Source of the DNA: a virus | IMG/VR virus record: IMGVR_UViG_3300020416_001751 | Location: 1-25,850 of that record | DNA: 25,850 nt | Reading direction: 5' to 3' (one strand) | Shown: in pieces, positions 1 to 13,250 of the stretch | Layout of the letters: each line of letters opens with the position of its first letter | Position numbering within the stretch: position 1 is the stretch's first letter | Position numbers and translations under genes: made by a program | Notes under the pieces: model-generated | Told to the model about the DNA's origin: nothing | Database searches by the model: none | Seen by the model: the letters and a program-made list of their open reading frames with translations, nothing else

Positions 1-199
1 AATGTCGCCGCCAAAATCAACGACGACGGCACACAGAAACTCGATATCAGAGACTTTCTTGAGTGCTTCATATTCGTCAGTGGTAAGAATTTTGAACTTC
101 GCCTGGCACTTTACATCCTGAAGTTCGCCACCATCTGTTGGCATTTTGATAGTGACCGGCCACCAGACCGTGTTTTCTTTTTTGAGCACAAAAGCCATG
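1..199 (-). CDS. Phage tail assembly chaperone-like protein (partial)
   Basis: This is the first 66 codons of a gene that runs off the left end of the window. It starts with ATG at 199-197, preceded by a GAGGT ribosome binding site six bases upstream. The visible protein opens MAFVLKKENTVWWPVTIKMP and continues with DGG, KCQAKFKILT and DEYEALKK. A short N-terminal beta region with a wPV..k.P.dGG pattern is typical of the small tail assembly chaperones encoded after the tail tube gene in siphovirus-tailed Mu-like phages. Such proteins coat the tape measure protein during tail assembly. Its position directly after the tail tube gene agrees. The assignment rests on position and pattern, and the C-terminus and any programmed frameshift lie outside. 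Confidence 0.6.
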
Positions 200-291
200 G
201 TTTACCTCATTTAATGAAGCCGTCCCTGGCTTACTTGAAAGACTGTTTAGCATCCATCAGCCGTTGCTATCGCCCAGCGGGGCACGTTGTA
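200..291 (-). other. Intergenic gap between tail tube and chaperone genes
   Basis: This 92-base gap holds the chaperone ribosome binding site and a small inverted repeat, AAGCC/GGCTT around 217-232. No T-run follows it. I see no promoter or gene here. Confidence 0.4.
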
Positions 292-1236
292 TCAGGCAGT
301 GGTTAAAACGCTGTCGTTACCGCGAATTACCCGAAAACCAATATCCCAGCACTGCTTGCCTTTTTGCGGGGAGGACTGAATAGTCAGCAGCTGAACACCT
401 GCGCTTGCTTCTTTCACAATCTCACCAGCAGCAATGCCGTGGGTAATTTCAAAGGGCACCACTGATGCTGCTTTAATCAGTGCAAATGGGTCGAAGGTAG
501 AAAGCGCCGGGGCTTCGATAATAAACTTGCCTTCCTCGCTCCAGTCATCAATGTAGATTTGATTAATTTCGGTGCCTTCGTCATGCTCAATACTGTTATT
601 GTCGGCCAGCTCGTACTCATAGAGGTTGAGCGCCTGGCCATCGAGCGTGAACGTGGTGTTGGCCTGACTAAATGGCAGCGGCTTTTGAAACGCGGTAAAG
701 CTTGGTGTAGGTGGCGCACCTTCTACGGTGTCGCCATAGATACCCTGTATTTCAGCGGTGATTTTAGGGATTTCGCCCATTTTGCCCGCTTTCGACAAAC
801 TCGCTTTTCCGGCTAACAGGATGTGCCACATGCCTTCCCAGTAGAAATACACGGTGCCGTCCAACTCGTTGGAGGCATTCAGGATCCGGTTATGGGTAAC
901 ATCACTAACATTAACCGTTTCATCCCGTGCTGCAAGTTGCACTAACGGGCTCCACGCTGCCGGGGTAACGTCGGTTCCAGAGCCTGCCCATTCAACCGGA
1001 GCGGTGATCGTAATTTTTTCACCGGTTTGAATAACCGGCTGGCCGCCTGACTGGCCATCATCCAGATCTCGCGTGATTTGTTCGCTCTGATACGGGTTAA
1101 CTGCAAGGCCGGTAGTCAGAATGGCCACCGGCGCAGCACCGTTGGCAATATAATCGGTGCCTTTGTCATCTACCTGGCGCTTAAGCGCCATCATGATGAA
1201 CTTGCGCTTATCTTTGTAACCTGGGGTAATGCTCAT
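292..1236 (-). CDS. Tail tube protein (siphovirus type)
   Basis: A 314-aa protein in the place where Mu has its sheath (L) and tube (M) genes. The protein is rich in beta-strand patterns with short acidic turns, for example VYFYWEGMWHILLAGKASL near residue 128 and a C-terminal Ig-like stretch (QLLTIQSSPQKGKQCWDIGF). It is far too short for a contractile sheath (about 490 aa in Mu), and its order (after gp37/gp38-like genes, before a chaperone) matches the major tail protein of B3/D3112-like Mu-related siphoviruses. It would form the non-contractile tube. The ATG at 1236-1234 overlaps the TGA of the upstream gene (ATGA), so translation is probably coupled. An internal start at residue 16 or 17 is possible but has weaker context. 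Confidence 0.7.
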   Translation of the reverse strand: MSITPGYKDKRKFIMMALKRQVDDKGTDYIANGAAPVAILTTGLAVNPYQSEQITRDLDDGQSGGQPVIQTGEKITITAPVEWAGSGTDVTPAAWSPLVQLAARDETVNVSDVTHNRILNASNELDGTVYFYWEGMWHILLAGKASLSKAGKMGEIPKITAEIQGIYGDTVEGAPPTPSFTAFQKPLPFSQANTTFTLDGQALNLYEYELADNNSIEHDEGTEINQIYIDDWSEEGKFIIEAPALSTFDPFALIKAASVVPFEITHGIAAGEIVKEASAGVQLLTIQSSPQKGKQCWDIGFRVIRGNDSVLTTA

Positions 1237-1442
1237 GCTTTAGTCTCCAGCGCTTTGGCTTGTTTGGCCGTGGTTTCGGTAGGGCGGTCTTCTACGTGCA
1301 CCACCTTAAGCTGGTAATGGGCGCTAATTTGCGCTTGCTTACCGGCACTGAGTTCGCCGTCTTTAAACTTGTTTTCGCCTGGCGCAAAGTCGATAGCTGC
1401 GCGGCGCACGGGGTGCTCACTACTGTTAGTCACAATAATCAT
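1233..1442 (-). CDS. Small tail-region protein in the gp38 (DUF2635-like) position
   Basis: A 69-aa protein, basic and lysine-rich at its C-terminus, between the gp37-type tail terminator and the tail tube. It occupies the slot of Mu gp38 (DUF2635), a short protein of unknown function; the pattern V.P..G...F..GEL is loosely compatible but I do not firmly recognise the family. Its ATG overlaps the TGA of the gene before it (TGATG), and its own TGA overlaps the ATG of the tail tube gene, so it is embedded in a coupled operon. A late structural or assembly role is inferred only from position. Confidence 0.6.
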   Translation of the reverse strand: MIIVTNSSEHPVRRAAIDFAPGENKFKDGELSAGKQAQISAHYQLKVVHVEDRPTETTAKQAKALETKA

Positions 1443-1864
1443 CAGTTAACTCCTTGGTACCAGGTGTTGGTTGTAAATCGGTCTATCCACCACAAGCCCT
1501 GGGGGGCGAATCCAACTAAATCGCCAGCACCTAATAACACTGGCTCAAAATCGGCGCTGGGTTTCCAGCCATATAAGCTATTGCGCAAGGCCGTGCGGTA
1601 CTGCTCCAGTTGCACCAGGGCTTTATCGCCGGTGCTGTCGTTAATGCTTTTAATGCCAATCACCACACCAAAGGTGATCACCATTTCCTGTAATGGCTGG
1701 CCTATATCCACATCGCGCGAATTGCCCGCAGGGCGTTCATTTACCGGCACCACATAGGCCACACTGCTGCGGTGGATGGGTTCGCCTATAGCTTCGCGCA
1801 CATTGGCCGCACCACCCACCTGATCGAAAATCGATTTAATGCGTGTTTGAACCAGGGTTAACAT
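1442..1864 (-). CDS. Mu gp37-like / tail terminator-like protein
   Basis: A 140-aa protein starting with ATG at 1864, directly after the TAG of the DUF1320 gene. The N-terminus (MLTLVQTRIKSIFDQVG) is an amphipathic helix, followed by a beta-sheet domain containing VAYVVPVNERPAGNSRDV and a conserved-looking QLEQYRTALRNSLYGWKP segment. This arrangement and length fit Mu gp37 and the tail terminator/head-tail joining proteins of Mu-like phages, which cap the end of the tail tube and join it to the head. The gene order (gpT, gp35, gp36, gp37) is the canonical Mu order, which supports the call. Confidence 0.75.
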   Translation of the reverse strand: MLTLVQTRIKSIFDQVGGAANVREAIGEPIHRSSVAYVVPVNERPAGNSRDVDIGQPLQEMVITFGVVIGIKSINDSTGDKALVQLEQYRTALRNSLYGWKPSADFEPVLLGAGDLVGFAPQGLWWIDRFTTNTWYQGVN

Positions 1865-2287
1865 CTAAATAAACCCTTTTGATTCTTCGCGGCTCCACAC
1901 ACTTACACCGCTTTGCATTTCGATGGCTTCGTCAGACGTTGCAACTTCCTCACTATCGCTAAGGCCTAAACGTACTTCGCCTTTGCCCACCGACTTTAAA
2001 AAGGCCAGTGCAGCGTCATAGCGTTTTTGCACTGCCTCTGGCACGCTGTTGTCGTATAAATTGAATCGGGCGATATCACCACAAAGCTTGGGCAATACGC
2101 TCGGTACCGCAGAAAGCGGCAGGGCATAACGCCCTCCCAAATAGCCATCAATCAATGCGCTGGCATCTGATATGGCGGCACCCGCGACCTGTGCATCTAC
2201 CGCACCGGTATTGCCCCGGTCAGTAAGCATGATTAACTCTTGCTCGCCAAACCGGTCTATCAGGTCGTTGGTGGTGCAGTAATTCAC
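1865..2287 (-). CDS. Mu gp36-like DUF1320 protein (head-tail connector)
   Basis: A 140-aa DUF1320 protein. It opens MNYCTTNDLIDRFGEQELIM with an N-terminal helix, then the family's SDASALIDGYLGGRYALPL segment and PKLCGDIARFNLYD, which I recognise from gp36 proteins of Mu-like phages. These are thought to form the head completion or connector ring. The start is GTG at 2287-2285, with a GGGAG ribosome binding site in the preceding gene's end; a three-base gap separates it from the gp35 stop. The C-terminus (SVWSREESKGFI) resembles tail ends in the family. Confidence in the family is high, and in the exact connector role moderate. Confidence 0.85.
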   Translation of the reverse strand: MNYCTTNDLIDRFGEQELIMLTDRGNTGAVDAQVAGAAISDASALIDGYLGGRYALPLSAVPSVLPKLCGDIARFNLYDNSVPEAVQKRYDAALAFLKSVGKGEVRLGLSDSEEVATSDEAIEMQSGVSVWSREESKGFI

Positions 2288-2290
2288 GGG

Positions 2291-2641
2291 TTATGCTCCC
2301 GCGTTTGCTGCGCCGGTTTCCTTACTCGCTTTGGTGCCTGCCTTGGCCGTGGTAGATTCGGTTTTCTTAGCAGGCGTTGCTTTTTCCTGCGCCGCTTTGG
2401 TGGCGGGGTGGGCCAACCAACGTTCGAGCGGTGAAGTATCAACGCCTTCCGGGATGGCATCGGCTGGCATTTCGCGAACAGACAGTTTCTTTTCGGCGTG
2501 AATGGCGTTGAGCTGGTCTTCACTGAGCTCATCTTTTGCGAAGGCGGTACCGGTGTCGGTAAATCCGAGACCGGCGCGGCGAAAGGAAGGCACGCTGGCC
2601 GTAATAACGAGAGCAATAATGGTTGCTTTGGTTACAGACAT
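2291..2641 (-). CDS. Mu gp35 / HI1506-like small head protein
   Basis: A 116-aa protein between the major capsid gene and gp36. The N-terminal part carries the pattern ASVPSFRRAGLGFTDTGTAF followed by DELSEDQLNAIHAEKKLSV, as seen in FluMu HI1506-like and Mu gp35-like proteins. A 35-residue Ala/Lys/Thr-rich low-complexity tail (KATPAKKTESTTAKAGTKAS) follows, which is likely disordered. The start is ATG at 2641 with a strong AAGGAG site. The role is unknown. A decoration or capsid-associated function is plausible because it follows the major head gene. An overlapping ORF in another frame is a shadow. Confidence 0.75.
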   Translation of the reverse strand: MSVTKATIIALVITASVPSFRRAGLGFTDTGTAFAKDELSEDQLNAIHAEKKLSVREMPADAIPEGVDTSPLERWLAHPATKAAQEKATPAKKTESTTAKAGTKASKETGAANAGA

Positions 2642-2654
2642 GATTTTCTCCTTG

Positions 2655-2682
2655 CAACCGGCTTACGCATGCAAGCCGGTTG
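2655..2682 (-). promoter_or_regulatory. Strong intercistronic hairpin after the major capsid gene
   Basis: A perfect 10-bp inverted repeat, CAACCGGCTT and AAGCCGGTTG, with an 8-base loop containing GCATGC. It sits between the gpT stop and the gp35 ribosome binding site. No T-run follows on either strand, so it is more likely an mRNA-stability or partial attenuation element than a classic terminator. Confidence 0.6.
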
Positions 2683-2706
2683 TTATAGTTGTAATGGTTG
2701 TAGGGC

Positions 2707-3636
2707 TTACAAGTAGTCAGGCGAAATTACGTTGAACATGCCGCGCAGTTCGTTACTTACCGCGCCTACGCCGCCATCGTCGATTAACTCACGTTCGTTA
2801 ATCTGTTTGGCTAACTGGTGCAGGCTCGCAGGCACTACCAGGGTTAAACGGTTTTTACCTAAGCCCAGTGGGCGGCCACCGTCTGCTTTAAAGCTGCGCA
2901 TCAGGTTAATGGCATCCCAAACAGTTTGGTAAGACAGGGTTTTCTTAACGCCCACCGCCATTTGCCAGAAGCCGTAGCCCACGTTGCAGCGGCAATCCAC
3001 GCCGTAGCGGAACGTTTTATTGGTAAACACCGCTTCATCATTCGGGTTATCCATGGCCACAAACTGCATGCCTTTGCGTTCCTGGAAGATGATGGGTTTT
3101 AAGCTGCGGCTGGTGTCCATGAGGTACCAGGCTTCGCCGTTGTACGTACCGTCTACAATTACGTTGGCAAACGAGGTATCAGAGCCAGAACCGTCAACTT
3201 CATCGTTTACCGGGTGGTCGGTATCAAAGAAGTACTGGCCGTCGTAGCAGGTTGTGGTAAAGCCTGCTTTTAATAGCGGGAATACCAGTTCATCAGGGAA
3301 GACCGACGCGGCATAACCCATTTCGTTCATCATAGGGGCGTAGACGCCCAGTACGTCGTCTTCAATGTCGTTACGGTCTACCGATACAGTAGATTCATAA
3401 TCTTTGTTGGTAATGGCGTATGAGTGCTCTTTAATGGATTGAAGCACACGATCACCCACCCATTCACGGAAGCCCGGCCATTGGCCTAACCAGCCATAGG
3501 TGTTTGATTTAGTGGCAGACGGAACAGTAGTGGCCACAGCGCTAAACATAGGCTCGCCTTTTACCTTGCCGTCTTCAAAGTTTTTACGGAATCCGGTGCG
3601 GATTGCGTTGAGTGTTGCGGAATTAACAATTGCCAT
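2707..3636 (-). CDS. Major capsid protein, Mu gpT type
   Basis: A 309-aa protein of the Mu major head subunit (gpT) family. Typical segments are visible: MAIVNSATLNAIRTGFRKNF at the N-terminus, then GWLGQWPGFREWVGDRVLQS, DRNDIEDDVLGVYAPM and DGQYFFDTDHPV. Many copies assemble the icosahedral head. The length matches Mu T (about 305 aa). It lies directly downstream of the protease/scaffold gene, as in all Mu-like phages. The start ATG at 3636 has a GGAGA site. No truncation is seen. Confidence 0.95.
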   Translation of the reverse strand: MAIVNSATLNAIRTGFRKNFEDGKVKGEPMFSAVATTVPSATKSNTYGWLGQWPGFREWVGDRVLQSIKEHSYAITNKDYESTVSVDRNDIEDDVLGVYAPMMNEMGYAASVFPDELVFPLLKAGFTTTCYDGQYFFDTDHPVNDEVDGSGSDTSFANVIVDGTYNGEAWYLMDTSRSLKPIIFQERKGMQFVAMDNPNDEAVFTNKTFRYGVDCRCNVGYGFWQMAVGVKKTLSYQTVWDAINLMRSFKADGGRPLGLGKNRLTLVVPASLHQLAKQINERELIDDGGVGAVSNELRGMFNVISPDYL

Positions 3637-3665
3637 GTGGGCGTTCTCCTATTTAATGAAGCGGC

Positions 3666-4250
3666 TTAAGCTTTTTCTTGCTTAAGGGTTTCGGCGTAGT
3701 CTTCGTGGCTGATGCCCAGTTGGTCGGCAATCGATTTCTGATCAGCCGTGAGCGCTGCCACACCAGTTTTGTCTTCCGCGTCGGGTTTAACCGCTGTGGT
3801 TTGCTTTCCATTCAACGCGGCAATGGTAGGGCGGCTGTCAATCAGTGTCTTCAGCGCGGCCATATTCGAATTGCCCAGGTCTTTCAGATAGGAAAGCTCT
3901 GCCTGGCTAATGAACTTGCCGTCCTTTTGTGCCTGGTCGATAACCTGGTCAACCGTGATGGATTCATGATCCGCTTTCAGCGCGGCCAGCTCGGTAACCA
4001 CCGCGTTATAGGTTGCTACTGGCACATGTTTGGAAATATCCACGGTACCACCGGCTTCTACCTGAGCGGTGAGGGCGGCAATTTTGGTTTCGCTTTCGGC
4101 GGCACCCTCAATTTGCGCTTTCAGGGCTGCCACTTTGGTTTTAACGTCTGGCTTGGTTAACTGGGCATGCAGGGCTGCTGCGTCGATGTCCTGGCTGGTA
4201 TCTACATCAATACCAAGCAGGCCAAATAAAAGGGCGAGTGCTTCATTCAT
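3666..4250 (-). CDS. Nested scaffolding protein (Mu Z-like), internal in-frame start
   Basis: An in-frame ATG at 4250 begins MNEALALLFGLLGIDVD inside the protease gene and is preceded by GGAG nine bases upstream. In Mu, gene Z is an independently translated C-terminal part of gene I and provides the scaffold for prohead assembly. The predicted 194-aa product is mostly helical and ends LGISHEDYAETLKQEKA. That the internal start is used is inferred from the site and from Mu biology. Confidence 0.6.
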   Translation of the reverse strand: MNEALALLFGLLGIDVDTSQDIDAAALHAQLTKPDVKTKVAALKAQIEGAAESETKIAALTAQVEAGGTVDISKHVPVATYNAVVTELAALKADHESITVDQVIDQAQKDGKFISQAELSYLKDLGNSNMAALKTLIDSRPTIAALNGKQTTAVKPDAEDKTGVAALTADQKSIADQLGISHEDYAETLKQEKA

Positions 4251-4925
4251 GGGCTTAGGCTCCGTGGGTTTAGTTTGCTTACTCTGAGGTTGGTTAGTGA
4301 GGGCAGCGGCTTCTGCCATGCCTTTTACTGCTGGGTCGTTGGTTAGGGCTGCGCTGTGCAGGTCGACGACCTGGCCGGTGGCTTTGTTGTACATCACCAC
4401 GGGGCTGTAAAACTTGTACTCGTCGTTTTTAATGTGTTCGCGGGCAGCGGGGGTAAACTTAAGCTGGGCGAACAATCCCTGTCCGGGCCTCCATTCAAAC
4501 TTTTCTCCCCAGGCGCTGGCCGGGGCTTTCTGGCCGTTCTCTTTGGCCAGCAAGGTTTGGTGGTCGTAATCGAATAACAGGCGTTGGCCGGATGCGGCAC
4601 GGGCGTTTAGCTGGGTAGATAACGCTGCGCCCGTTTCGTCATTAATCAGCCATTTATTACCTGGGACTTCGAAAGGGCGGCCATCGTAGGCGGCAAAATC
4701 ACTGCCCGGCAGTATTTGCTGCCAGGGCTGGTCTAAATTGATTTCGAATGAGCAGGCGGCAATGCCGAGTGGTTGCTCGCTCTGGTTGGACAGGGCGGCA
4801 AACTCTGGTTTTAAAATCGTATGATTTGAGATCATCGATTTCAACGAGCTGGCAGCCGCGAGCGCTGGCACTACATGACAGCCTCCTGATTCCGAATTGT
4901 GTATTTCGTTTGAGTGATTTTTCAT
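3666..4925 (-). CDS. Prohead protease with C-terminal scaffold (Mu I/Z)
   Basis: A 419-aa Mu I-family protein. The protease domain is about residues 50-200: a beta-rich start (PLGIAACSFEINL), GSDFAAYDGRPFEVP, LLFDYDHQTLLA with the family's DYDHQ motif, then APASAWGEKFEWRPGQGLFA and DEYKFYSPVVMYN. The part after about residue 225 is a long alanine/lysine-rich helical scaffold region. The protease processes the scaffold and capsid precursors in the prohead. The first ATG (4925) lacks a good ribosome binding site and follows a hairpin; a later ATG (MISNHTILKP, near 4833) is an alternative start. It sits directly after the accessory cassette at 4955-5900. Confidence 0.92.
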   Translation of the reverse strand: MKNHSNEIHNSESGGCHVVPALAAASSLKSMISNHTILKPEFAALSNQSEQPLGIAACSFEINLDQPWQQILPGSDFAAYDGRPFEVPGNKWLINDETGAALSTQLNARAASGQRLLFDYDHQTLLAKENGQKAPASAWGEKFEWRPGQGLFAQLKFTPAAREHIKNDEYKFYSPVVMYNKATGQVVDLHSAALTNDPAVKGMAEAAALTNQPQSKQTKPTEPKPMNEALALLFGLLGIDVDTSQDIDAAALHAQLTKPDVKTKVAALKAQIEGAAESETKIAALTAQVEAGGTVDISKHVPVATYNAVVTELAALKADHESITVDQVIDQAQKDGKFISQAELSYLKDLGNSNMAALKTLIDSRPTIAALNGKQTTAVKPDAEDKTGVAALTADQKSIADQLGISHEDYAETLKQEKA

Positions 4926-4947
4926 AGCCCGGACAGTATGCCGGGCT
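4926..4947 (-). promoter_or_regulatory. Hairpin between the HTH gene and the protease gene
   Basis: A 7-bp inverted repeat, AGCCCGG and CCGGGCT, with an 8-base loop lies immediately upstream of the first protease ATG. It has no T-run. It could lower read-through or translation at the junction between the cassette and the late operon. Confidence 0.4.
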
Positions 4948-4954
4948 GAAGGGG

Positions 4955-5179
4955 TTAGTCTGGTTTAGTCTGGGTTTGGGGATATTGGTATTTAATATTG
5001 ATAAGTTCCCAAAAAGCGGGATGCATTTTTCGCTCGCCACGCTCCCATTGCTGCCAAGCTCGACGGCTGGTGTGTAGCAATTCTGCGCAGGCATCTTGAG
5101 CGGACGTTATACCTGTATTGCTAGCTTGCTGCAATTGCTCCCTTAGATTAACAATGTCTTCAGGTGTCGGATTATTCAT
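4955..5179 (-). CDS. Small HTH regulator, Aca-like by position
   Basis: A 74-aa protein starting MNNPTPEDIVNLREQLQQAS. It is an XRE-like helix-turn-helix: helices around residues 6-17 and 22-34, then the recognition part with HTSRRAWQQWERGERKMHP and a helix AFWELINIKYQ. I chose ATG 5179, which overlaps the TAA of the gene before it; a TTG at 5203 would add eight residues. It is the last gene of a three-gene cassette with its own promoter and dyad operator. In anti-CRISPR loci a small HTH gene of this kind (aca) closes the operon and represses its promoter. The HTH is clear; the Aca role is inferred from context, and I cannot assign it to a numbered Aca family. Confidence 0.75.
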   Translation of the reverse strand: MNNPTPEDIVNLREQLQQASNTGITSAQDACAELLHTSRRAWQQWERGERKMHPAFWELINIKYQYPQTQTKPD

Positions 5180-5429
5180 TGCCAATTCCAGACACCTTAT
5201 CAATTACATTTGCTAAAGCATTAAACCGCTTTTCTGTGACCGCTTTTAACTGTCCGGTTACGATACACAGTTGGTCATAATCGTCAGTTTTTACCGCTTG
5301 CTCCAGCTGGGTGATTAGTGTTTTTTGCTCTCGCTCCCAGTCAGCCGCCCAATCACGGGCGACCTCCTGTTTAACTTCTAGCGATTTTGCTCGGTTTAAC
5401 CGCTCGCCTATACTTCTTCTTTTAGTCAT
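5172..5429 (-). CDS. Unknown 85-aa helical protein, candidate anti-CRISPR
   Basis: An 85-aa protein with no family I recognise. It begins with a basic stretch (MTKRRSIGERLNRAKSLEVK) and appears fully alpha-helical, with heptad-like segments VARDWAADWEREQKTLITQL and LKAVTEKRFNALANVIDKV. The ATG at 5429 follows the preceding gene by nine bases with an AAGGGG site; its TAA overlaps the start of the HTH gene, so the three genes form one operon. Size, operon with an HTH gene, and location between gpG and the protease gene are the usual setting of acr genes in Mu-like phages. The anti-CRISPR role is inference only. Confidence 0.7.
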   Translation of the reverse strand: MTKRRSIGERLNRAKSLEVKQEVARDWAADWEREQKTLITQLEQAVKTDDYDQLCIVTGQLKAVTEKRFNALANVIDKVSGIGNE

Positions 5430-5438
5430 TCCAACCCC

Positions 5439-5720
5439 TTAAAAATAAATATCAAATTTATCCCAATCACAAGCGTCGCTTTCGTCTTCGCAATCAAAAT
5501 TAATGATATCCCACTCAATTCTTCCTACAGTATCCTCTGGGTATTCACTGTTTGGATTTACCAGCGGCGCAGAATAGGTTGAATAGTTGTTGTTTGGGCT
5601 GTTGTCGAAAGTAGCTTGACCTACAGAGCGATACAGAATGCCCTCGTGGCGAAACTCAATCTCACCTTCGGCGTTAAAAGTAAAATCAATGTTTGCTGTG
5701 TTATCGAATTGGTAGTTCAT
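5439..5720 (-). CDS. Unknown 93-aa highly acidic protein, candidate anti-CRISPR
   Basis: A 93-aa protein starting MNYQFDNTANIDFTFNAEGE, with an AGAGGA ribosome binding site. It has about 20 Asp/Glu and only 4 Lys/Arg, with the acidic residues concentrated in the last 30 positions (EWDIINFDCEDESDACDWDK). It looks beta-rich and aromatic. Strong negative charge is typical of DNA-mimic inhibitors, including some anti-CRISPR proteins. It is the first gene after the cassette promoter and the CRISPR-repeat-like element. I recognise no homologue. A cysteine pair (FDC, DAC) near the C-terminus might form a disulfide or metal site. Confidence 0.7.
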   Translation of the reverse strand: MNYQFDNTANIDFTFNAEGEIEFRHEGILYRSVGQATFDNSPNNNYSTYSAPLVNPNSEYPEDTVGRIEWDIINFDCEDESDACDWDKFDIYF

Positions 5721-5788
5721 TTTTTTGTCCTCTAACCCGCAAGGGGTTTGTTAGTTTGAATTTAGTGGGGCATCGCCCCGTTTGTCGC

Positions 5789-5819
5789 TTTTCAATCCAC
5801 GCCCCTTGAGTGGGGCGAC
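5789..5819 (-). ncRNA. Solitary type I-C CRISPR-repeat-like unit (candidate RNA anti-CRISPR)
   Basis: Read on the minus strand, the 31-base element is GTCGCCCC, loop ACTCAA, GGGGCG, then TGGATTGAAAA. Type I-C repeats are about 32 nt, begin GTCGC, form a short GC hairpin and end GCGTGGATTGAAAC. The 5' GTCGC and the 3' run GCGTGGATTGAAA match exactly; only the last base differs. There is one copy, no second repeat at a spacer distance and no cas gene. Flanking GTCGC/GCGAC could also pair. It would be transcribed from the cassette promoter as part of the leader of the acidic protein gene. Published RNA anti-CRISPRs (Racrs) are such solitary repeat units in phages; they bind Cas subunits into non-functional complexes. 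The resemblance is seen directly, the activity is inferred. Confidence 0.78.
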
Positions 5820-5820
5820 T

Positions 5821-5838
5821 AAGTTAATTGCTTAACTT
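5821..5838. promoter_or_regulatory. Perfect inverted repeat near the cassette transcription start
   Basis: AAGTTAA and TTAACTT are separated by four bases (GCAA in the minus-strand RNA). It lies at or just after the expected transcription start. It could be a second operator for the HTH protein or a stable GNRA-type hairpin at the 5' end of the RNA. Confidence 0.5.
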
Positions 5839-5845
5839 GGTATTA

Positions 5846-5874
5846 AGATTATGCGCAATGCGCGTAATTGTCAA
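5846..5874 (-). promoter_or_regulatory. Cassette promoter with dyad operator between -35 and -10
   Basis: A perfect -35 (TTGACA, 5874-5869) is followed by -10-like CATAATCT (TAATCT at 17 bp, or CATAAT at 15 bp). The whole spacer is a 21-bp imperfect palindrome at 5848-5868 with arms ATTAtGCGC and GCGCgTAAT. A repressor bound here would block RNA polymerase, as Aca proteins do in acr loci. The HTH gene at the end of the cassette is the natural candidate. Confidence 0.65.
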
Positions 5875-6040
5875 CAAGTATTTTTATTTATTTTTCGAAG
5901 AGTGGAAATGTGGCGTGAATTCCATTTTCTAAACTCGTTATTCCCTGTTTAAATTTCACCAGAAACGTTTAAATACTTTTAAGGTGAGCTGGTCTACTAC
6001 TTTTAGCTTTAATGGCCTTAGAATGGCTTACAGCGCGTTT

Positions 6041-6493
6041 TTAATCAATAGCGTCTTTTAGGTGGTCTTGCAGTATTTCGACGATTTCGTCGGCATCATT
6101 CCAGGGGCCGGTTGTGAGTCCTATGAACGGGCGGGCGGGTATGCCGTCGTCTTCTCTGCCGAACTGGTGGGTGGCTGCGTATTCCTGGTTACTACCGAAG
6201 GTGAGTGTTTTGCCCGCTATCTGATAGTTGAGCGTATCGCGCATAGTACCGGATTGTTGCAGTATTCTGTCTTCGCCGCCTTTACGGGCTAGCGTTCGTG
6301 GCGCTAGCGGCTCCCAAAGCTCGCCATTGGGGGCAACTTCCAGCTTAAAGCGCTCTTGTGTGGATTCGATCAGGTACTCGCCAATCTCGGCAAACGCGGG
6401 TTCCAGATTCTGGCCAGCCTTAATGAGCCTGCCCAGCATGCGGTTTACTTCACCGCTGCCGTAGGCTCTTACCGTAATAAAGCTACCCGCCAT
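6041..6493 (-). CDS. Virion morphogenesis protein, Mu gpG type
   Basis: A 150-aa protein of the phage virion morphogenesis (gpG / tail completion) family. Diagnostic parts are IGEYLIESTQERFKLEVAPN followed by GELWEPLAPRTLARKGG, then ILQQSGTMRDTLNYQIAG, GSNQEYAATHQFG and IPARPFIGL, the usual end of these proteins. In Mu-like phages it acts in head-tail assembly. It follows the 70-aa ORF with a short overlap. It marks the left edge of the standard head operon before the accessory cassette, which separates it from its usual neighbour, the protease gene. Confidence 0.93.
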   Translation of the reverse strand: MAGSFITVRAYGSGEVNRMLGRLIKAGQNLEPAFAEIGEYLIESTQERFKLEVAPNGELWEPLAPRTLARKGGEDRILQQSGTMRDTLNYQIAGKTLTFGSNQEYAATHQFGREDDGIPARPFIGLTTGPWNDADEIVEILQDHLKDAID

Positions 6494-6695
6494 TGGAATC
6501 GCTCCGTAATACCAGGTTGCTTAGCAGATCGCCAAACTGCTCGCGTTCATAACTGGGTGCTTGCTTGGCTAATGTCTCAATTTGCTGGTACTTGTCTTCA
6601 TCGGGAATGCTCTGGCGCAAAATCTCCTGTGCCTGGCTCAATTGTTCACTGGGTTCTCGGTGGTTCTGTTTAATTCGGTTTAAAATATCGTTCAT
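6483..6695 (-). CDS. Unknown 70-aa protein between MuF and gpG
   Basis: A 70-aa, mostly helical and polar protein (MNDILNRIKQNHREPSEQLS; later DEDKYQQIETLAKQAPSYER). Its start overlaps the end of the MuF gene and its end overlaps the start of gpG, so it is translated within the head operon. A short ORF in this place is common in Mu-like siphoviruses. I recognise no domain. Confidence 0.7.
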   Translation of the reverse strand: MNDILNRIKQNHREPSEQLSQAQEILRQSIPDEDKYQQIETLAKQAPSYEREQFGDLLSNLVLRSDSNGG

Positions 6696-8113
6696 GGCAG
6701 CAGCTGCTCCATTAAGTTATCGAAGTACTCGGCAATTTCCGGATAGTGCGCGGCCAGTATTTCGCGGTTAAGTGCCCAGGCGGCAAAGTGCTCGGCGTGC
6801 CATTCCATAGTGTCTTGCATACTGTACTGGGTAATAGCAGTATCGAGACCGGGTGAGTCAATCCCCATTCGCATGGCCTGAAATTGCACCTGATGGCCCA
6901 TTTCGTGTAGCCAGGTAACAATGGTACCACCATGATCGCCGCTCTCGGTATAATTACGCACAATATGAGACAGTGACCATTGCCGTATACCCTGCTGCTG
7001 GGCCAGTATGGCGGCTTCTACCGCGCCGGTTAAATCGGCCATGTTGCGCACTTTATCCAGGTTAACACCGGTTTTGGCTTTTACTACTACGTGCGTCCAG
7101 CTGCGCGACGTATACCCGTTTGAGCGTTTGGCCATGTTGCCCGGTACCGGCCAGTAGCGAAAGGCCATTTGCTCGGGCACGTCCAGATAGTTGGCAATTG
7201 GGGCCATTAACGGATACAGCTTTTTGGAGCCGCGCACCATATCTGTAGGCTTTAGGAATAGCGTTTTCATGTTATAGCGGCTGATAAAGTCGGCCACTTG
7301 GTTAAGCTGAGGCTGGGTTTCAGTCAGCTTGCCTATTACGCGGTTTAACCCGTGAATGTCTACGTTCTTATTAGTGGAATAGGCATCGGGTATTTTGCGT
7401 TCTACCAGGCGTTGCTTAAGCGGTGGTTTGCTGGCCTGTGTTTGCCGGATGGTTTCAGCCTGGCTTTTAACGCCGGGTGAATAGTCGAAGCCCGGATCAA
7501 TCCCCACCGGCACATGGTGCACTTCGCCGGTTTTCTTATCTACCCATTCGCGGGTCTCTATCACCGGCTCCTTACTCATCTTATTGCCGCGCCTGCGCAT
7601 GCTGCGCTCGGTCTCACCAAACACCTTGCACTTGCAGCCCCAGCCGTTCTGGGGAAACCATACCTTCCAGAATGGGCTTTCCTTGGGGAGTGTGGTGCCG
7701 TCATTTTTTAGGTGGTGTGGGCGAGGGTATCTGCTGTCACCATGGGCATAGCGCCAAAAGGGAAAGTTTTGCAGCTGCTGGTACCGGCCTGCGTTATAGC
7801 TCTGGCGCATGTTGGTATCGTAGATGATATTGGCACGCCATGCGGCGGTACCGGTATGATCCCAACCGTGCTTTTTAACCAGGTGTTTAAACTCCTTTTG
7901 AAACCAGCTTAAACTTTTACCTTCGGCAATGGCCCGATCCACTATCGAGCGCATATCGGCCAGTAAGTCAGTTTTTACTGCACCGGCAATCATGAAAGCG
8001 TTGTTGTGTTGTTCACGCCAGATATCTGCCCAGCGTTCGCTGGGCACATCTACCTTACTGCGGAAGAAATCAATGGCTTCACTAAACTTCTGAGGGCCAT
8101 ACTCGGCAGGCAT
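6692..8113 (-). CDS. MuF head morphogenesis protein fused to a zincin-like domain
   Basis: A 473-aa protein. Residues about 1-230 are a Mu F / gp30 minor head protein: MPAEYGPQKFSEAIDFFRSK, RANIIYDTNMRQSYNAGRY and the Cys-containing FPQNGWGCKCKV end. It is predicted to sit at the portal vertex. Residues about 260-473 are a separate domain with an HEMGH zinc-binding motif near residue 403 and a downstream EWHAEHFAAW segment about 35 residues later that could supply the third ligand, a gluzincin-like layout. MuF proteins carrying C-terminal effector or enzyme domains are known and are thought to be injected with the DNA. I chose ATG 8113; a TTG one codon earlier is also in frame. Confidence 0.9.
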   Translation of the reverse strand: MPAEYGPQKFSEAIDFFRSKVDVPSERWADIWREQHNNAFMIAGAVKTDLLADMRSIVDRAIAEGKSLSWFQKEFKHLVKKHGWDHTGTAAWRANIIYDTNMRQSYNAGRYQQLQNFPFWRYAHGDSRYPRPHHLKNDGTTLPKESPFWKVWFPQNGWGCKCKVFGETERSMRRRGNKMSKEPVIETREWVDKKTGEVHHVPVGIDPGFDYSPGVKSQAETIRQTQASKPPLKQRLVERKIPDAYSTNKNVDIHGLNRVIGKLTETQPQLNQVADFISRYNMKTLFLKPTDMVRGSKKLYPLMAPIANYLDVPEQMAFRYWPVPGNMAKRSNGYTSRSWTHVVVKAKTGVNLDKVRNMADLTGAVEAAILAQQQGIRQWSLSHIVRNYTESGDHGGTIVTWLHEMGHQVQFQAMRMGIDSPGLDTAITQYSMQDTMEWHAEHFAAWALNREILAAHYPEIAEYFDNLMEQLLP

Positions 8114-8154
8114 CAATCATTCCCTTTTCGCGAAAGTTCTTTATAACTCATCAC

Positions 8155-8280
8155 TTATCCAAAACTTATGGAGATGTGGCTAAACAACCAAATCAAAGCT
8201 TCTATAACCAACCAGCCTATAAATGCTGAAATTAGAAAGAACACGATAATTACAGGGGCCCAACTATCATTTCCAAACAT
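8155..8280 (-). CDS. Tiny membrane protein (41 aa)
   Basis: A 41-aa ORF beginning MFGNDSWAPVIIVFFLISAF and continuing IGWLVIEALIWLF: one long hydrophobic span with short polar ends. Its ATG overlaps the TAA of the 50-aa ORF before it by one base (TAATG), and GGTGAG precedes it. A coupled start and clear membrane segment support a real gene. The function is unknown. Being in the packaging operon, it might act in superinfection exclusion or lysis. Confidence 0.6.
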   Translation of the reverse strand: MFGNDSWAPVIIVFFLISAFIGWLVIEALIWLFSHISISFG

Positions 8281-8432
8281 TACTCACCTTTGTCGTTTAA
8301 GAATTCAAACTTTCCGGCTCTGCTTTCTAACAGATTTCTAATCAATAAATACATGACTATGGCCAATAGCAGGGGGCTTAGCACAAAGGATACAAACAAC
8401 TTATAGGCGATGGTTGATACTTTGTGCTTCAT
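8280..8432 (-). CDS. Tiny membrane protein (50 aa)
   Basis: A 50-aa ORF directly after the portal gene. It starts MKHKVSTIAYKLFVSFVLSP, continues LLLAIVMYLLIRNLL, and ends in a charged tail (ESRAGKFEFLNDKGE). One or two transmembrane segments with a basic N-terminus are expected. Its ATG lies three bases after the portal stop. Its stop is shared with the start of the 41-aa ORF, so the two are probably made together. I recognise no family. Confidence 0.6.
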   Translation of the reverse strand: MKHKVSTIAYKLFVSFVLSPLLLAIVMYLLIRNLLESRAGKFEFLNDKGE

Positions 8433-8434
8433 GG

Positions 8435-10069
8435 CTATCGACCCTCGTTAACATCGTACCGGCCACTGAGTTCGGCAGCGGCCAGCGCTTGGGCTATCAG
8501 TGTTTGGTAGTCATCGGTAGGCAGCGTGTCTTCCAGTTCCAGCAGTTGCTCTAAGAGCTGCTCCAGTGAATCGGCATTGGCTACCAGTTCTTCGATGGGC
8601 TGCATGAGTTTGGCGAACTCGGTACCGGCTTGTTTTTGCAAGCGTTCGGTGAGCACGTCTGCACCGTCTGGCGCTGGCTGTGCGCCTTTAAGCGCTGCCA
8701 GCGCCAGCTTAAGTGCTGCGGCTGGGCTTTGCGGTTGTGCTGGTTGTTGCGGTGGTAAAGGGCCAGGCTGCTCACCGGCAGGGAGTCCGGTGGGTGGCTT
8801 TGCAGCGCTGGCTAAAACTGGTTCTTCGCCTTCTGGCTCTGGAATGCGTAATTTGTCATGCGCCCAGCTTACCGGGATACGCATGCCAATACCGGCCAGT
8901 TTGGGCAGGCTCTCGCTGTACAGCTTGATATCTTCCGGCTCCTGGGTATCGAACACGATGCGCGGCTTGCGGCGCGGGTCGCCGGTGTAGCTTTTGCTGT
9001 TAAGCATGTGCATAGGCAAAATCAAATCGCGGTTAAGCGAGTTCGTGAATTGGCGTAAGTCATGATCACGAATATCCTGGCGCACCTCGTTATGCACGTT
9101 ACCAAGGGCCTGGCTGCCAGTGCTGTCTACCTGTGAGGTGAGGGTTTGCCCCAGTATCACCTTCGACTGGATGCGCTCACACCAACTCATCATGGTCATA
9201 AACGGATCGCTGCCACCACCTTTTGCCGCTTCGTGGAATTCGATTTCCATGCCCTTGGGAATGATGCCCCCGGCGTTGTGGCCAATGCCTAGCACAGCTT
9301 GCAGTAAGCGCTGCTTTTCGTCTGGCGTGGCACCCGAGGGGTATTTACCCAGTTTGATGGGGATACCGTAGATTTCTAAAAACTCGGCTAAGTCGCGCAC
9401 CGAGTAGTTTTTGAATATGAATGGCCAGGCTAACTGGCGAATGAGGCCAGCGCGGGCCGGGTAGCCACTTTTAGCGGGGTGACGGTGCTGGATCCAGTTT
9501 AGCGGGCGCAGCTTTTCGCCCCAGCCGCTTTGGTCGCGCAGGGCAATACAGTTCTGGTCTTCCTGGTGTAATTGAAACCAGGTGGCCGGGCGGTGCTCAA
9601 AATGTTGCGGGATCCGAAAGTTATTGTATAAGCCCCATTCCAGCTCGATATTCGCAAAGCCTTTTAGAATGGCATCTCCCATACCAAATATCATGTCGTG
9701 CCAGTCTTCTACATCGCGCAGTATCTGCTCAATATTGGCGGCGTCTTTTTGTTCCTGGGCGCTGGCATTAGTTGGCGGCTCTATGTTCCAGTCGATATCG
9801 GTAAGGGCCATCTTGCGTTTAAACAGCTCGGCTTGTATGTGGCCGTCTTTTTCTTCGATATCTTCGGCCAGATAGCATTGTTCCAGCAGGTTGCCCTGTT
9901 CGGCATTCTTTAAAATTACCGCCAGTGTGGCCGGGGTGAGGCCGCTGGAAGGGTGCTCTGCAAATTCCCGGCGCAGCTGGGCTACACGGGCCGAGTCGTC
10001 GGTTTGTTTTTGCTGTAGTTCTTTTTCGCGTACCCGGTACCGGATACCGTTATATTCGTAGGTTTCCAT
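8435..10069 (-). CDS. Portal protein, Mu gp29 / DUF935 family
   Basis: A 544-aa DUF935 protein. Family segments include LAVILKNAEQGNLLEQCYLA, EDIEEKDGHIQAELFKRKMA, LTDIDWNIEPP, DAILKGFANIELEWGLYNN and FIFKNYSVRDLAEFLEIYGI. The C-terminal 120 residues contain a Pro/Gln/Ala-rich linker followed by a Leu-rich acidic helix. The dodecameric portal is the DNA channel and the docking point of the terminase. The length matches the family (about 510 aa in Mu, slightly longer here). The start ATG overlaps the terminase stop (10069). Confidence 0.95.
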   Translation of the reverse strand: METYEYNGIRYRVREKELQQKQTDDSARVAQLRREFAEHPSSGLTPATLAVILKNAEQGNLLEQCYLAEDIEEKDGHIQAELFKRKMALTDIDWNIEPPTNASAQEQKDAANIEQILRDVEDWHDMIFGMGDAILKGFANIELEWGLYNNFRIPQHFEHRPATWFQLHQEDQNCIALRDQSGWGEKLRPLNWIQHRHPAKSGYPARAGLIRQLAWPFIFKNYSVRDLAEFLEIYGIPIKLGKYPSGATPDEKQRLLQAVLGIGHNAGGIIPKGMEIEFHEAAKGGGSDPFMTMMSWCERIQSKVILGQTLTSQVDSTGSQALGNVHNEVRQDIRDHDLRQFTNSLNRDLILPMHMLNSKSYTGDPRRKPRIVFDTQEPEDIKLYSESLPKLAGIGMRIPVSWAHDKLRIPEPEGEEPVLASAAKPPTGLPAGEQPGPLPPQQPAQPQSPAAALKLALAALKGAQPAPDGADVLTERLQKQAGTEFAKLMQPIEELVANADSLEQLLEQLLELEDTLPTDDYQTLIAQALAAAELSGRYDVNEGR

Positions 10070-11727
10070 TAATAGCAGCCACTCTGGTTATACATTAAAT
10101 CGTCGGCATCGCGGGCGTTCTCGTTCCAGCGATCGTTTTTATCCGGCAGGGGGGTGTAGTCAATCTCGCCGCCTTCCATCTTGCTGGCCGCCACCATCAT
10201 GCAGCAGGCAATGGCGCTATCGCCGTGGCGCTCTTTCTTGTCGTCGGTTTTAGCGTCGGGGATGCGCGGCACGCCCCGGTTGTTAATCTGGATAGAGCGC
10301 AGGTCGTCCAGGATGTCGGCATCTTTGGGTATGATGATGTCGAAGTCTTCATAATAAGACTTCATGATTGGCATGGTTTCCCGGTACCAGGTCTCGCTGA
10401 TTTTTACCGCCTCCACCAGGCCAGCACCGTATTTATCTACCGCTTGCTCGGCTAAGTACTCACCGTTACCCGTGGCGTCCAGCTGTGCGCCCACAAAGCG
10501 GGGCAGGCGGTCCAGCAGGTAGAACAGGATTTGTTCTTGCTGCTTGTATGGGATGTTACGCAGCTCCAGTACCAGCGGTACCTGGATACTTAAATCTTGC
10601 TGGATAGCACCCACCCACAAACAGGTTAAATCGCCTTTACGGGCGAAATCCTCGCCCAGGCAGTGGCGCAGGTTAGGATCCAGTTTAAGCAGCTCAGGCA
10701 GCAATACCTCTTTGCACCAGTCTTTGATATCAGCTGCCCGCAGGTCTGGCCGCATCTGGTTCCATTCAGGTGTTTGCTTATAGCGAATAACAATGGGCTG
10801 GCCATTGTCGCCCGGTTTTACCATGGCCTTATCGATAAGTGCCCGGCTAATGTAGGCACCGCCGCCAGACTTAGGTACACAATAGTATTCTTCGAGCGCG
10901 TCTTCCTGGCTGGCCGTATCGTTAAGTAAATCTTGCTTCCACTTCTCTTCGGCTTCCTGGCTCCACGGTTGGCCCAGACGCTGGCAAATACGCTGGTACA
11001 GGCCCTCGTTGCAGGCATCGTCCAGGGTAATGCGGTGCACGCTGTAGCGCTTCTTACCGGCCCGGCTATCGTCTATCAGCTGATTAAACTGGTTCTCTGT
11101 GCCGTTATGGGTACTGATTAAGCGAACCTTCGCGCCCCACATGGTGAGTGCCAGGGCCGCTTTGAGTACTTCGGCTAAGCGTTCGTGAAAGGCCGCTTCG
11201 TCTATAGTGACGTTACCCTGCATCCCCCGCAAGTTAGAGGGTTTGGAGCTGAGCGCCTGAATTTTAAAGCCACTGGCAAAATGAATAACGAACGTCAGGA
11301 TCTCTTTACCTTCCTGACCGTCATCGATAAACATTTCTTCTTCGATGTCGCCAGCCGCTTTATTAAAGGCTTTTGACCACATGGCCGCAGCATCAATAAA
11401 CTCGCGGGCCATCTCCTTATTGGAGCCAACGTAGAAGTGGTTGGTACCTAATGCGGCTTTGCTCTTACTGGCAATCAATACGGCATCTGCCGCCTCTGCC
11501 CAGGTAATGCCGGTTCGGCGTGACTTCTCGGCTATTTTTAGTGGGGAGTCGTCGGCTATCCAGCGTTTCTGGTACCCCAGCAGCAGCTCGTTTTCATCGA
11601 AGGGGATAAACGTAGGCAGCCCGAAGCGGGTTTCAAACCTGTCGCATTGCTCTATGGCCTTTTGATACTGCGACTTACTGGGCTGTATTTCCGGTGGTGT
11701 GGTAGGCTGCTTGGGTGGTAACTTCAT
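10069..11727 (-). CDS. Terminase large subunit, Mu gp28 type
   Basis: A 552-aa packaging ATPase/nuclease. It shows the modified Walker A region of this family (EKSRRTGITWAEA, about residues 68-80), Walker B VTIDEAA (about 173-179) and a nuclease-like domain beginning GEDFARKGDLTCLW, where the Asp residues are likely metal ligands. A later segment, KERHGDSAIACCMM, is also characteristic. It pumps DNA into the prohead and in Mu-like phages cuts host DNA flanking the prophage (headful packaging). Its start overlaps the stop of the DUF3486 small terminase gene. Confidence 0.95.
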   Translation of the reverse strand: MKLPPKQPTTPPEIQPSKSQYQKAIEQCDRFETRFGLPTFIPFDENELLLGYQKRWIADDSPLKIAEKSRRTGITWAEAADAVLIASKSKAALGTNHFYVGSNKEMAREFIDAAAMWSKAFNKAAGDIEEEMFIDDGQEGKEILTFVIHFASGFKIQALSSKPSNLRGMQGNVTIDEAAFHERLAEVLKAALALTMWGAKVRLISTHNGTENQFNQLIDDSRAGKKRYSVHRITLDDACNEGLYQRICQRLGQPWSQEAEEKWKQDLLNDTASQEDALEEYYCVPKSGGGAYISRALIDKAMVKPGDNGQPIVIRYKQTPEWNQMRPDLRAADIKDWCKEVLLPELLKLDPNLRHCLGEDFARKGDLTCLWVGAIQQDLSIQVPLVLELRNIPYKQQEQILFYLLDRLPRFVGAQLDATGNGEYLAEQAVDKYGAGLVEAVKISETWYRETMPIMKSYYEDFDIIIPKDADILDDLRSIQINNRGVPRIPDAKTDDKKERHGDSAIACCMMVAASKMEGGEIDYTPLPDKNDRWNENARDADDLMYNQSGCY

Positions 11728-12299
11728 TAGGCAATACCCAGAATTTCACGTTTAATTTGTGCTGCGCCCTCAGTGGTAAGCCCGGCAGCCTTGGCAGCGC
11801 TCTCGGCCCGTTCGGCGGCTTCTTCGGCCATGGCCTTGCGGATTTCACGTTCACGCTTGGTGGACTCACTGGCGGCTTTCTCCAGCTTCTCTACGCCTAC
11901 GGCCAACTCCTTAATAAACTTAGGCGGTACTACTTCGCCGGATTCCGAGAGTTTCAGCACTTGATCAAAGGCAAGGGTGCGCACCATTTCAATCAGCACT
12001 TTTGAGACTTCACCAGTAGGCTTATCGCCCAGCTGGTCGACCCATTGCTTAGAGACTTCGCGGGCTTCCTGAATACGGCTGCCCACTGTGGCCATGCGTG
12101 TGGCGTAGCGGTTTAAACCACTACGGGAGAGCTGCTCATCGTCGGGCAGGCCTGCATCGCGAATAAGCCCGTTTACCCGCTCCAGTACTTCGGTTTGGGT
12201 GACCGACTTATCGCGCAGCAGCTCTATCAACTCCGATTTAATGTCTTCCGGGAGCTGGTCGATTTTGCTGGGTTTGCCTCGGGTGCGTTTGTCTGTCAT
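11727..12299 (-). CDS. Small terminase subunit, Mu gp27 / DUF3486
   Basis: A 190-aa DUF3486 protein. The N-terminus (MTDKRTRGKPSKIDQLPEDI, then KSELIELLRDKSVTQTEV and LSRSGLNRYATRMA) is the DNA-binding part of this family; the C-terminal half is a charged helical region (ESTKREREIRKAMAEEAAER) likely used for oligomerisation. It recognises the phage end and recruits the large subunit. Position directly upstream of gp28 is canonical. Confidence 0.93.
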   Translation of the reverse strand: MTDKRTRGKPSKIDQLPEDIKSELIELLRDKSVTQTEVLERVNGLIRDAGLPDDEQLSRSGLNRYATRMATVGSRIQEAREVSKQWVDQLGDKPTGEVSKVLIEMVRTLAFDQVLKLSESGEVVPPKFIKELAVGVEKLEKAASESTKREREIRKAMAEEAAERAESAAKAAGLTTEGAAQIKREILGIA

Positions 12300-12339
12300 C
12301 GGTCAGTCCAGCCGTCAATATTACGTTGAGCCATAATCG

Positions 12340-12633: not shown

Positions 12634-12634
12634 G

Positions 12635-13024: not shown

Positions 13025-13250
13025 GATTGCGCGTCCTTTTTTCATGATCCTGTTGGCAGTCCGGGCAGCGCTGAGCACTGGCGATAATTCGGCGGCGCTC
13101 TGTAATATCTACATCGCAATCCACACAAAGTGGCGAGCCGTCTGGGGCTGTGTTAAGCGCTGGCGCAGGGGGTAAGTCAAAGCTCCGGTTTTGCATAGCC
13201 AGCTCATGAAAATGCGCACTTCTGCGTTGCGCTTCGTCGGCGATATCCAT
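13017..13250 (-). CDS. TraR/DksA-type zinc finger protein
   Basis: A 77-aa protein with a C4 zinc finger: LCVDCDVDI (CxxC) and, 16 residues later, RCPDCQ (CxxC). The N-terminus MDIADEAQRRSAHFHELAMQ is a helix, as in short TraR proteins that bind the RNA polymerase secondary channel and mimic DksA/ppGpp. It is a standard member of Mu-like late or lysis clusters. It is in the same operon as the holin-like gene, its ATG following that gene's stop with overlap at 13250. Confidence 0.9.
   Translation of the reverse strand: MDIADEAQRRSAHFHELAMQNRSFDLPPAPALNTAPDGSPLCVDCDVDITERRRIIASAQRCPDCQQDHEKRTRNHG

Follow-up and report, generated by a model that had tools for sequence, protein, structure and literature searches.

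What does the small gene cassette do that separates the gpG gene from the protease/scaffold gene of a Mu-like phage, and does it act against host immunity based on clustered regularly interspaced short palindromic repeats (CRISPR)? The cassette lies in IMG/VR virus record IMGVR_UViG_3300020416_001751, a stretch of 25,850 bases that was analyzed as a whole (the window), and a preliminary description made from its letters had proposed a combined RNA and protein anti-CRISPR locus. We favor, with a probability of about three in four, the reading that the cassette is a single anti-CRISPR (Acr) operon controlled by an Aca10-like repressor (Aca, anti-CRISPR-associated), in which a type I-C RNA anti-CRISPR (Racr) in the leader precedes two candidate acr genes. 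As far as sequence can tell, the combined interpretation is supported by the insertion slot, the match to type I-C repeats, the kinship of the regulator to Aca10, the operator, and an AcrIF11-family gene beside a relative of the regulator. On the minus strand the cassette runs from a TTGACA box through a 19-bp palindrome, a weak -10 box, a 5' hairpin, the repeat mimic, two more hairpins and a Shine-Dalgarno sequence to three genes: two open reading frames (ORFs), ORF93 and ORF85, and the helix-turn-helix (HTH) gene HTH74, which overlaps ORF85 by 8 nucleotides (nt). Every part was located where the preliminary description had placed it, and its assignment of the phage to the Mu-like group agrees with Pfam and PHROGs family matches of the protease, gpG and gpF; the nearest named phage is Pseudoalteromonas phage HS6 (54% capsid identity, 42% transposase identity). 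The proposed span of 4926-5900 was right as to place, but its end is slightly generous, since the DNA held in common with a second contig (L002, below) covers 4990-5876.

The RNA part is a single unit resembling a type I-C CRISPR repeat. Cas5d genes were sought with profile TIGR01876 in genomes from the class (9 of 190 positive) and the phylum (27 of 299 positive) of G001, a genome bin that carries the cassette; of the 39 places matched, 20 were examined together with their flanks, and a script found arrays in 13 of these 20. Repeats of the form GTCGC...GGATNGAAAC made up 11 of the 13 arrays beside Cas5d genes, for example GTCGCCCCTTCACGGGGGCGTGGATTGAAAC, the other two arrays being of different form. 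A covariance model (R1) was trained on 12 array repeats of type I-C, each 32 nt long and none taken from the cassette: 8 came from these Cas5d loci and 4 from viral-contig arrays that had been picked by a related pattern. With R1, the unit at 5789-5819 (minus strand) scored 34.0 bits (E = 1.1e-8, on a rough calibration), and the next best of the 11 sites listed scored 10.3 bits. The unit departs from real type I-C repeats only in its loop and last base, and the copy in L002, with a single G to A change in the handle, still scores 27.5 bits. Taken at 36 nt, as the reverse complement of 5784-5819, the unit ends in GCGAC, which lies outside the type I-C repeat. By sequence and hairpin, then, the unit is a genuine type I-C repeat mimic, and it is solitary: there is no array, and no second site in the window exceeds 10.3 bits. 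A CRISPR mini-array, which requires at least two repeats flanking a spacer, was accordingly rejected. The unit sits on a phage contig about 20 nt past the start of transcription of a predicted promoter, and a search of the virus record for Cas5d, the sole cas family sought, was negative.

Two side observations concern such repeats in general. Loci L210 and L214 hold Cas5d genes with 37-nt repeats of a different form, ending GCGGATTGAAAC. The motif CGAC, which after a solitary repeat could pair with the repeat's first bases, occurs within 12 nt past the repeat in 9 of 90 solitary type I-C repeats and in 10 of 468 array repeats (Fisher p = 0.001; the nine include both copies of the cassette, and array repeats within one locus are not independent); the instances are window 5784-5788 and loci L039, L041, L069, L086, L088, L119, L126 and L134.

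The regulator ties the cassette to known anti-CRISPR operons. A phmmer search matched HTH74 over residues 23-68 to PDB entry 7XI5, the deposited structure of Aca10 (E = 3.9e-13). Aca10 is the regulator of the acrIC7-acrIC6-aca10 operon of Pseudomonas citronellolis (PMC9410881, PMC7913775), and its DNA-contacting residue R44, described as critical (PMC9410881), aligns to R50 of HTH74, so that the DNA-contact arginine is kept. By its similarity to 7XI5 and the retained arginine, the 74-residue HTH protein that had been noted at the end of the cassette is classed as Aca10-like.

A matching operator is found as well. The published minimal Aca10 site is ATACGCTCATTGAGCGTAT (PMC9410881); the corresponding palindrome reads TTACGCGCATTGCGCGTAT in L002 (3 of 19 positions mismatched) and TTACGCGCATTGCGCATAA in the window (5 of 19), and in both contigs it lies between the -35 and -10 boxes. 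The proposed promoter with a dyad operator is thus present, with a perfect -35 box but a weak -10; in L002 the promoter is TTGACC-17-TATATT, with TATATT where the window has TAATCT. Scanning IMG/VR with HTH74 returned 29 loci with relatives, and in 17 of these a palindrome with at most three mismatches to the L002 form occurs within the stretch searched (up to 900 bases upstream of the HTH gene), a closeness that no more than 1 in 100 shuffles reached at any of these loci; the 17 include two near-identical pairs and L001, the window's twin, for whose 900 upstream bases none of 100 shuffles gave a site as close to the L002 form. A TTGAC-like -35 box precedes the operator in many of these loci too. 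The weight of the operator rests on its position and its recurrence upstream of HTH relatives, not on the bare match.

One of these loci links the regulator family directly to a known inhibitor. At L004:3526-4207, an Aca10-like operator is followed by an AcrIF11-family gene and then by an HTH gene whose product is 71% identical to HTH74 over residues 1-63. The product of the acr gene is an AcrIF11-family ADP-ribosyltransferase by NF052490 (107 bits, cut-off 50), and among PDB sequences it matched 8dwq (H3 Protein; E = 1.3e-10) and AcrF11, 6kyf (E = 3.2e-4). The proposed search for aca homologs next to known acr genes thus yielded this case, the only one in which, among the 8 loci whose upstream proteins were scanned, a relative of HTH74 was seen beside a known acr gene. 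As a side observation, a small protein recognized by eye (motif like IHFETRR.NKTRWVKQA) recurs directly upstream of Aca10-like HTH genes and is a candidate acr or accessory product; its copies in L003 and L005 gave no meaningful family match.

Compared with acrIC7-acrIC6-aca10, the cassette shares the order of small genes followed by a short HTH gene, the palindrome between the -35 and -10 boxes, and the arginine. It differs in that its ORFs have no Acr family match in the libraries searched, in that a repeat mimic precedes them, and in the 3 (L002) or 5 (window) of 19 operator positions that depart from the Aca10 site.

The cassette also turns up in other phage DNA. All of it recurs in L002 (IMGVR_UViG_3300005733_000036), a 47-kb contig that is otherwise unrelated: when the window was compared with the whole of L002, the only shared DNA was 4990-5876 (87% identity), and 4 of the 28 window proteins found a match, namely the three of the cassette and that of 14022-14546 (48% identity). 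ORF93 is 97% identical in amino acids between the two copies (dN/dS, the ratio of nonsynonymous to synonymous change, 0.12; 4 nonsynonymous and 7 synonymous changes), ORF85 is 89% identical (dN/dS 0.10), and HTH74 is 75% identical over 63 residues; both ORFs look to be under purifying selection. In the leader, the 5'-most 82 nt (a limit set once the changes had been seen) hold one change, in the handle, compared with 7 at 52.5 synonymous sites of ORF93 (Fisher p = 0.006). Among viral contigs, ORF93 and ORF85 used as queries recovered those of L001 and L002 and no others, and a genome scan added one further copy, L034, in the Ponticaulis-labelled bin G001. There the cassette is 100% identical to the window inside a block of about 4.5 kb (window 4750-9250), and most 250-nt bins in the remainder of the compared part (window 190-13,415) are 72-97% identical. 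This block suggests recent recombination, and because it extends so far around the cassette, the identity of L034 says nothing special about the cassette itself.

Table 1. Features of the cassette, its flanking genes, and copies of the small protein found upstream of Aca10-like HTH genes
Feature	Position	Strand	Sequence or size	Basis	Remark
Phage_tail_S/gpG gene	6041-6493				One flank of the cassette
-35 box of the cassette promoter	5869..5874	-	TTGACA	Sequence	Perfect; TTGACC in L002
Palindromic operator	5849..5867	-	TTACGCGCATTGCGCATAA		Aca10-like; between -35 and -10
Probable -10 box	5846..5851	-	TAATCT		17-bp spacer; weak
5'-end hairpin	5821..5838	-	AAGUUAA-GCAA-UUAACUU	Fold prediction	At the predicted transcript start; no change in L002
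Type I-C CRISPR-repeat-like unit, candidate Racr	5789..5819	-	Stem CGCCCC/GGGGCG plus handle UGGAUUGAAAA		
Element directly past the handle	5784..5788	-	GCGAC		Complementary to GUCGC at the repeat start
Second leader hairpin	5767..5779	-	GGGGC-GAU-GCCCC	Fold prediction	About 9 nt past the handle; unchanged in L002
Third leader hairpin	5734..5748	-	AACCC/GGGUU	Fold prediction	Directly before the Shine-Dalgarno sequence; L002 changes in the loop
Shine-Dalgarno sequence of ORF93	5728..5733	-	AGAGGA	Sequence	
ORF93, candidate acr	5439..5720	-	93 amino acids	Sequence	Acidic
ORF85, candidate acr	5172..5429	-	85 amino acids		Three-helix model
HTH74, Aca10-like repressor gene	4955..5179	-	74 amino acids		ATG at 5179; TTG start further up possible
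Mu protease gene	3666-4925				Other flank of the cassette
Small protein	L003:3217-3585				
Small protein	L005:3540-3992				
Small protein	L007:3361-3564				
Small protein	L008:2808-2984				

ORF93 is very acidic, as described (isoelectric point 4.05; 20 Asp and Glu residues vs 4 Lys and Arg), and most AcrIC proteins are acidic according to PMC7913775. Its predicted model is all-beta at moderate confidence (mean predicted local distance difference test score, pLDDT, 74.4; the five models differ, 50-74). ORF85, called helical from its sequence, was modeled by AlphaFold2 as three helices (mean pLDDT 88.7). Neither had resembled any Acr recognized at the outset, and the proposed searches agree: for both ORF93 and ORF85, Pfam, PHROGs, NCBIfam, PADLOC and PDB sequences gave nothing significant, and in fold searches ORF93 had no significant match in PDB or BFVD, nor did ORF85 have a significant one. 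Several candidates were discarded, namely AcrIF23 among the fold matches of ORF85 (E = 3.4), a PDB match of ORF85 to Cse2 (E = 1.2), and, for ORF93, a toxin chain in PDB (E = 5.4), Bacillus plasmid matches (E = 0.2 and 0.6) and the Prevotella locus L035 (E = 2e-5), where the match falls within a reading frame of 412 amino acids. Distant homologs of ORF85 (36-39% identity) are carried by plasmids of Haemophilus parainfluenzae, Enterocloster bolteae and Neisseria lactamica; the gene next to the homolog on the N. lactamica plasmid also encodes an HTH protein, for which nothing beyond general HTH families came up, and those under their cut-offs. Extending the hunt for ORF85 relatives added no copy to those already known (among 398 genomes, the sole positive was the bin carrying the cassette), and query P0001, used in this hunt, returned itself and one relative among plasmids and none among phages.

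The position of the cassette bears on the role of these ORFs. The preliminary description had equated it with the acr slot of JBD30-type phages, and the annotated order in JBD30, Neck1 (gpG-like), AcrF1, a winged HTH protein and the protease, agrees: acrF1-aca1 lies between the Neck1 gene and that of the head maturation protease, with the acr gene before the HTH gene as in the cassette. JBD30 differs in having another acr gene, another aca family and, by model R1, no type I-C repeat in the 10-kb stretch searched. R1 likewise found no type I-C repeat in the stretches of HS6 and Shewanella phage MuM16-1 that were examined. The slot before the protease gene holds an SGNH hydrolase gene in HS6 (L229:2279-3415) and an RNA-directed DNA polymerase gene in MuM16-1 (L230:2361-3317); it is therefore a general, variable moron slot. 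Such contents would fit a reading in which only the RNA part and the regulator inhibit CRISPR, while ORF93 and ORF85 are other morons, for instance against another defense or for superinfection exclusion, that use the shared promoter. This reading, with which the lack of similarity to known Acr proteins and the plasmid relatives of ORF85 without visible acr context are also consistent, is unlikely. Against it, both ORFs travel with the repeat and the Aca10-like gene into the unrelated contig L002, and they stand in a row headed by an Aca10-like operator, in a family of loci where the sole identified partner gene in a relative, that of L004, is of the AcrIF11 family.

A different view of the regulator would make the cassette a toxin-antitoxin pair or an ordinary autoregulated moron, with HTH74 as a HigA2-like antitoxin, ORF85 or ORF93 as the toxin, and the repeat as a passenger. 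HTH74 does match antitoxin HigA-2 (E = 0.0011), the toxin-first order is typical of HigBA, and a survey of Aca proteins notes the resemblance of Aca10 to HigA2 (PMC9410906). The match to Aca10, however, is far better, searches of Pfam, PHROGs, NCBIfam and PADLOC gave no significant toxin-family match for either ORF, the PDB toxin chain is insignificant, and the repeat stands at the promoter in both copies of the cassette. We consider this view very improbable.

Two further alternatives concern the repeat. In CreA-like and CreTA-like systems, a repeat-derived guide pairs with a gene or promoter of the element and directs Cascade as a regulator. It is very improbable that the repeat here steers the Cascade of the host to a phage or host gene for regulation in this way, or that it is a site for integration in CRISPR arrays. 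Repeat-like sequences with such roles exist (PMC10651486), but no second repeat-like element lies nearby, the 34 nt past the handle contain a hairpin, and these 34 nt find no better non-self match than a total of 18 of 34 (window) or 19 of 34 (related contig), compared with 15-21 in 20 shuffles of the window; a CreTA-like guide role is not supported, as no target in either phage was better than shuffles. Equally improbable is a decayed CRISPR remnant or functionless chance match. This reading could appeal to the abundance of solitary type I-C-like repeats in viral contigs (at least 89 in the loci of one scan) and to the repeat alone, whose conservation (1 change in 31) does not reach significance (p = 0.25). 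It is hard to square with a score far above background, with the retention of the repeat and its hairpin immediately at the promoter in the two copies, and with the lack of any other repeat nearby.

If the cassette is an anti-CRISPR operon under Aca10-like control, it might work as follows. Early in infection, before repressor accumulates, the promoter would fire and give a single message. The repeat mimic in its leader would be bound and cut by host Cas5d, the type I-C nuclease that processes precursor CRISPR RNA (crRNA) and a subunit of Cascade. By analogy with known Racrs, the leader would be cut after GGGGCG. Cutting would leave a 42-nt upstream piece consisting of nearly nothing but two hairpins, together with a message that begins with a crRNA-like handle and has a hairpin about 9 nt on. 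Neither piece seems fit to guide a normal Cascade, and Cas5d and its partners would therefore be tied up. ORF93 and ORF85 most likely represent new families of Acr proteins, and the Aca10-like protein would bind the palindrome between the -35 and -10 boxes and shut the operon down. The upstream piece is predicted to fold with -16.4 kcal/mol and to have almost no free RNA, which makes a Cas7 filament in the style of RacrIF1 unlikely; trapping of Cas5d, and perhaps its partners, on the repeat and the message handle is the favored mode. That a Cas5d cut unmasks the Shine-Dalgarno sequence is not supported, its predicted accessibility being 0.62 before and after the cut. More speculatively, and with considerable doubt, the message could be its own trap: Cas5d would process the acr mRNA leader and stay on the 5' handle, the hairpin 9 nt on would stop Cas7 assembly, and Cas proteins would be parked on the mRNA for the inhibitors and the Aca10-like brake, perhaps stabilizing or pacing it. 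If so, the mRNA leader would both sense and consume Cas proteins, a mode unlike the Cas7-filament decoy of RacrIF1.

Two characterized RNA anti-CRISPRs bear comparison with the proposed operon (PMC10651486). RacrIC1, from a Bifidobacterium pseudocatenulatum prophage, inhibits type I-C and is carried on one message with acrIC5, so that it too combines a solitary type I-C repeat and a protein anti-CRISPR in one operon. There, however, the repeat lies 11 nt downstream (3') of acrIC5 in a two-part message, whereas the repeat of the cassette is in the 5' leader, before two ORFs and an Aca10-like gene, the operator of which would be expected to govern the entire unit, and no homolog of a known acrIC was recognized in the cassette with the libraries searched. 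RacrIF1, from a Thiocystis violascens prophage, is likewise a solitary repeat with its own promoter that acts as a decoy for the repeat-processing nuclease; it is cut by Cas6f, and its upstream product seeds an aberrant Cas6f-Cas7f complex (PMC10651486). It differs in being a small noncoding RNA directed at type I-F that acts with Cas6f and a filament of Cas7f, whereas the mimic in the cassette is an mRNA leader that would meet Cas5d.

Several observations weigh against the reading of the cassette as an anti-CRISPR operon under Aca10-like control with a type I-C RNA inhibitor. ORF93 and ORF85 lack any significant family match, the plasmid relatives of ORF85 have no visible link to CRISPR, and the 5' cut piece, unlike that of RacrIF1, would hold little single-stranded RNA. 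HTH74 also matches, weakly, the non-Aca family VC1465 (E = 1.1e-6; 28.7 bits, cut-off 70), and an NCBIfam scan of 10 proteins encoded upstream of HTH relatives in 8 loci recognized a known Acr in 1 of 10 and none in the other nine. Nor is Aca10 specific to type I-C: in Rahnella it accompanies AcrIF17, Acr and Aca types being held to be uncoupled (PMC9410906), AcrIC7 inhibits type I-E as well (PMC7913775), and the Acr of L004 is of the I-F type. Model R1 found no type I-C repeat in 19 other loci with HTH relatives. A generic promoter scan of the window did not report the cassette promoter, the -10 box of which is weak. The operator of the window is unremarkable taken alone (position 6219 has a second site with 5 mismatches, and 3 such sites turned up when the window was shuffled 5 times), and no operator was found in 12 of the 29 HTH loci, among them L010, for which fewer than 200 upstream bases are available. 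The leader comparison depends on the chosen 82 nt: over its full 122 nt the leader carries 6 changes (p = 0.07), and for the repeat by itself the conservation falls short of significance. In addition, synonymous change climbs from 0.15 in ORF93 to 0.59 in ORF85 and is saturated in the HTH gene, which points to a more recent exchange of the 5' part and therefore weakens that comparison.

The searches for a host and for targeting spacers count on the same side. In G001, the only bin with the cassette, neither Cas5d nor Cas1 was found, nor any further type I-C repeat by the pattern used, though the phage contig may have been assigned to this bin in error. Of 634 spacers taken from type I-C arrays (39 loci), none matches either phage, the best reaching 18 identical nt. 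According to PMC10651486, the CRISPR-Cas subtype of the host matches for 83% of prophage solitary repeat units (SRUs) in hosts that carry cas genes. The contig end of L002 has an ISL3 transposase, which pointed to no host. Our guess from sequence, made because the nearest named relative is Pseudoalteromonas phage HS6, is that the host is a marine gammaproteobacterium. Elsewhere in the window, in the non-structural half of the phage, Rfam sRNA-Xcc1 matched at 16221-16311 (minus strand) with 53.4 bits, compared with a gathering score of 53.

Operons joining a Racr to an acr gene and operons under Aca10 are kinds already known, and 2,103 SRUs were reported in viral contigs by the study that searched IMG/VR3 (PMC10651486), among which the cassette repeat may already be counted. 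A limited literature search by title and abstract returned no paper describing the cassette; as far as such searches show, the new elements are the placing of a repeat in the leader of a message under Aca10-like control and the two protein families. If the reading is correct, one phage transcript would combine an RNA decoy, two new protein inhibitors and a limiting repressor. Control of the Aca10 type would extend to RNA anti-CRISPRs, and two candidate Acr families would be added, with type I-C, from the repeat, as the first guess for their target. The operator pattern, found at 17 loci, points to further candidate acr genes in related operons, and the cassette itself would allow the cooperation of RNA and protein inhibitors to be studied in a compact and mobile unit.

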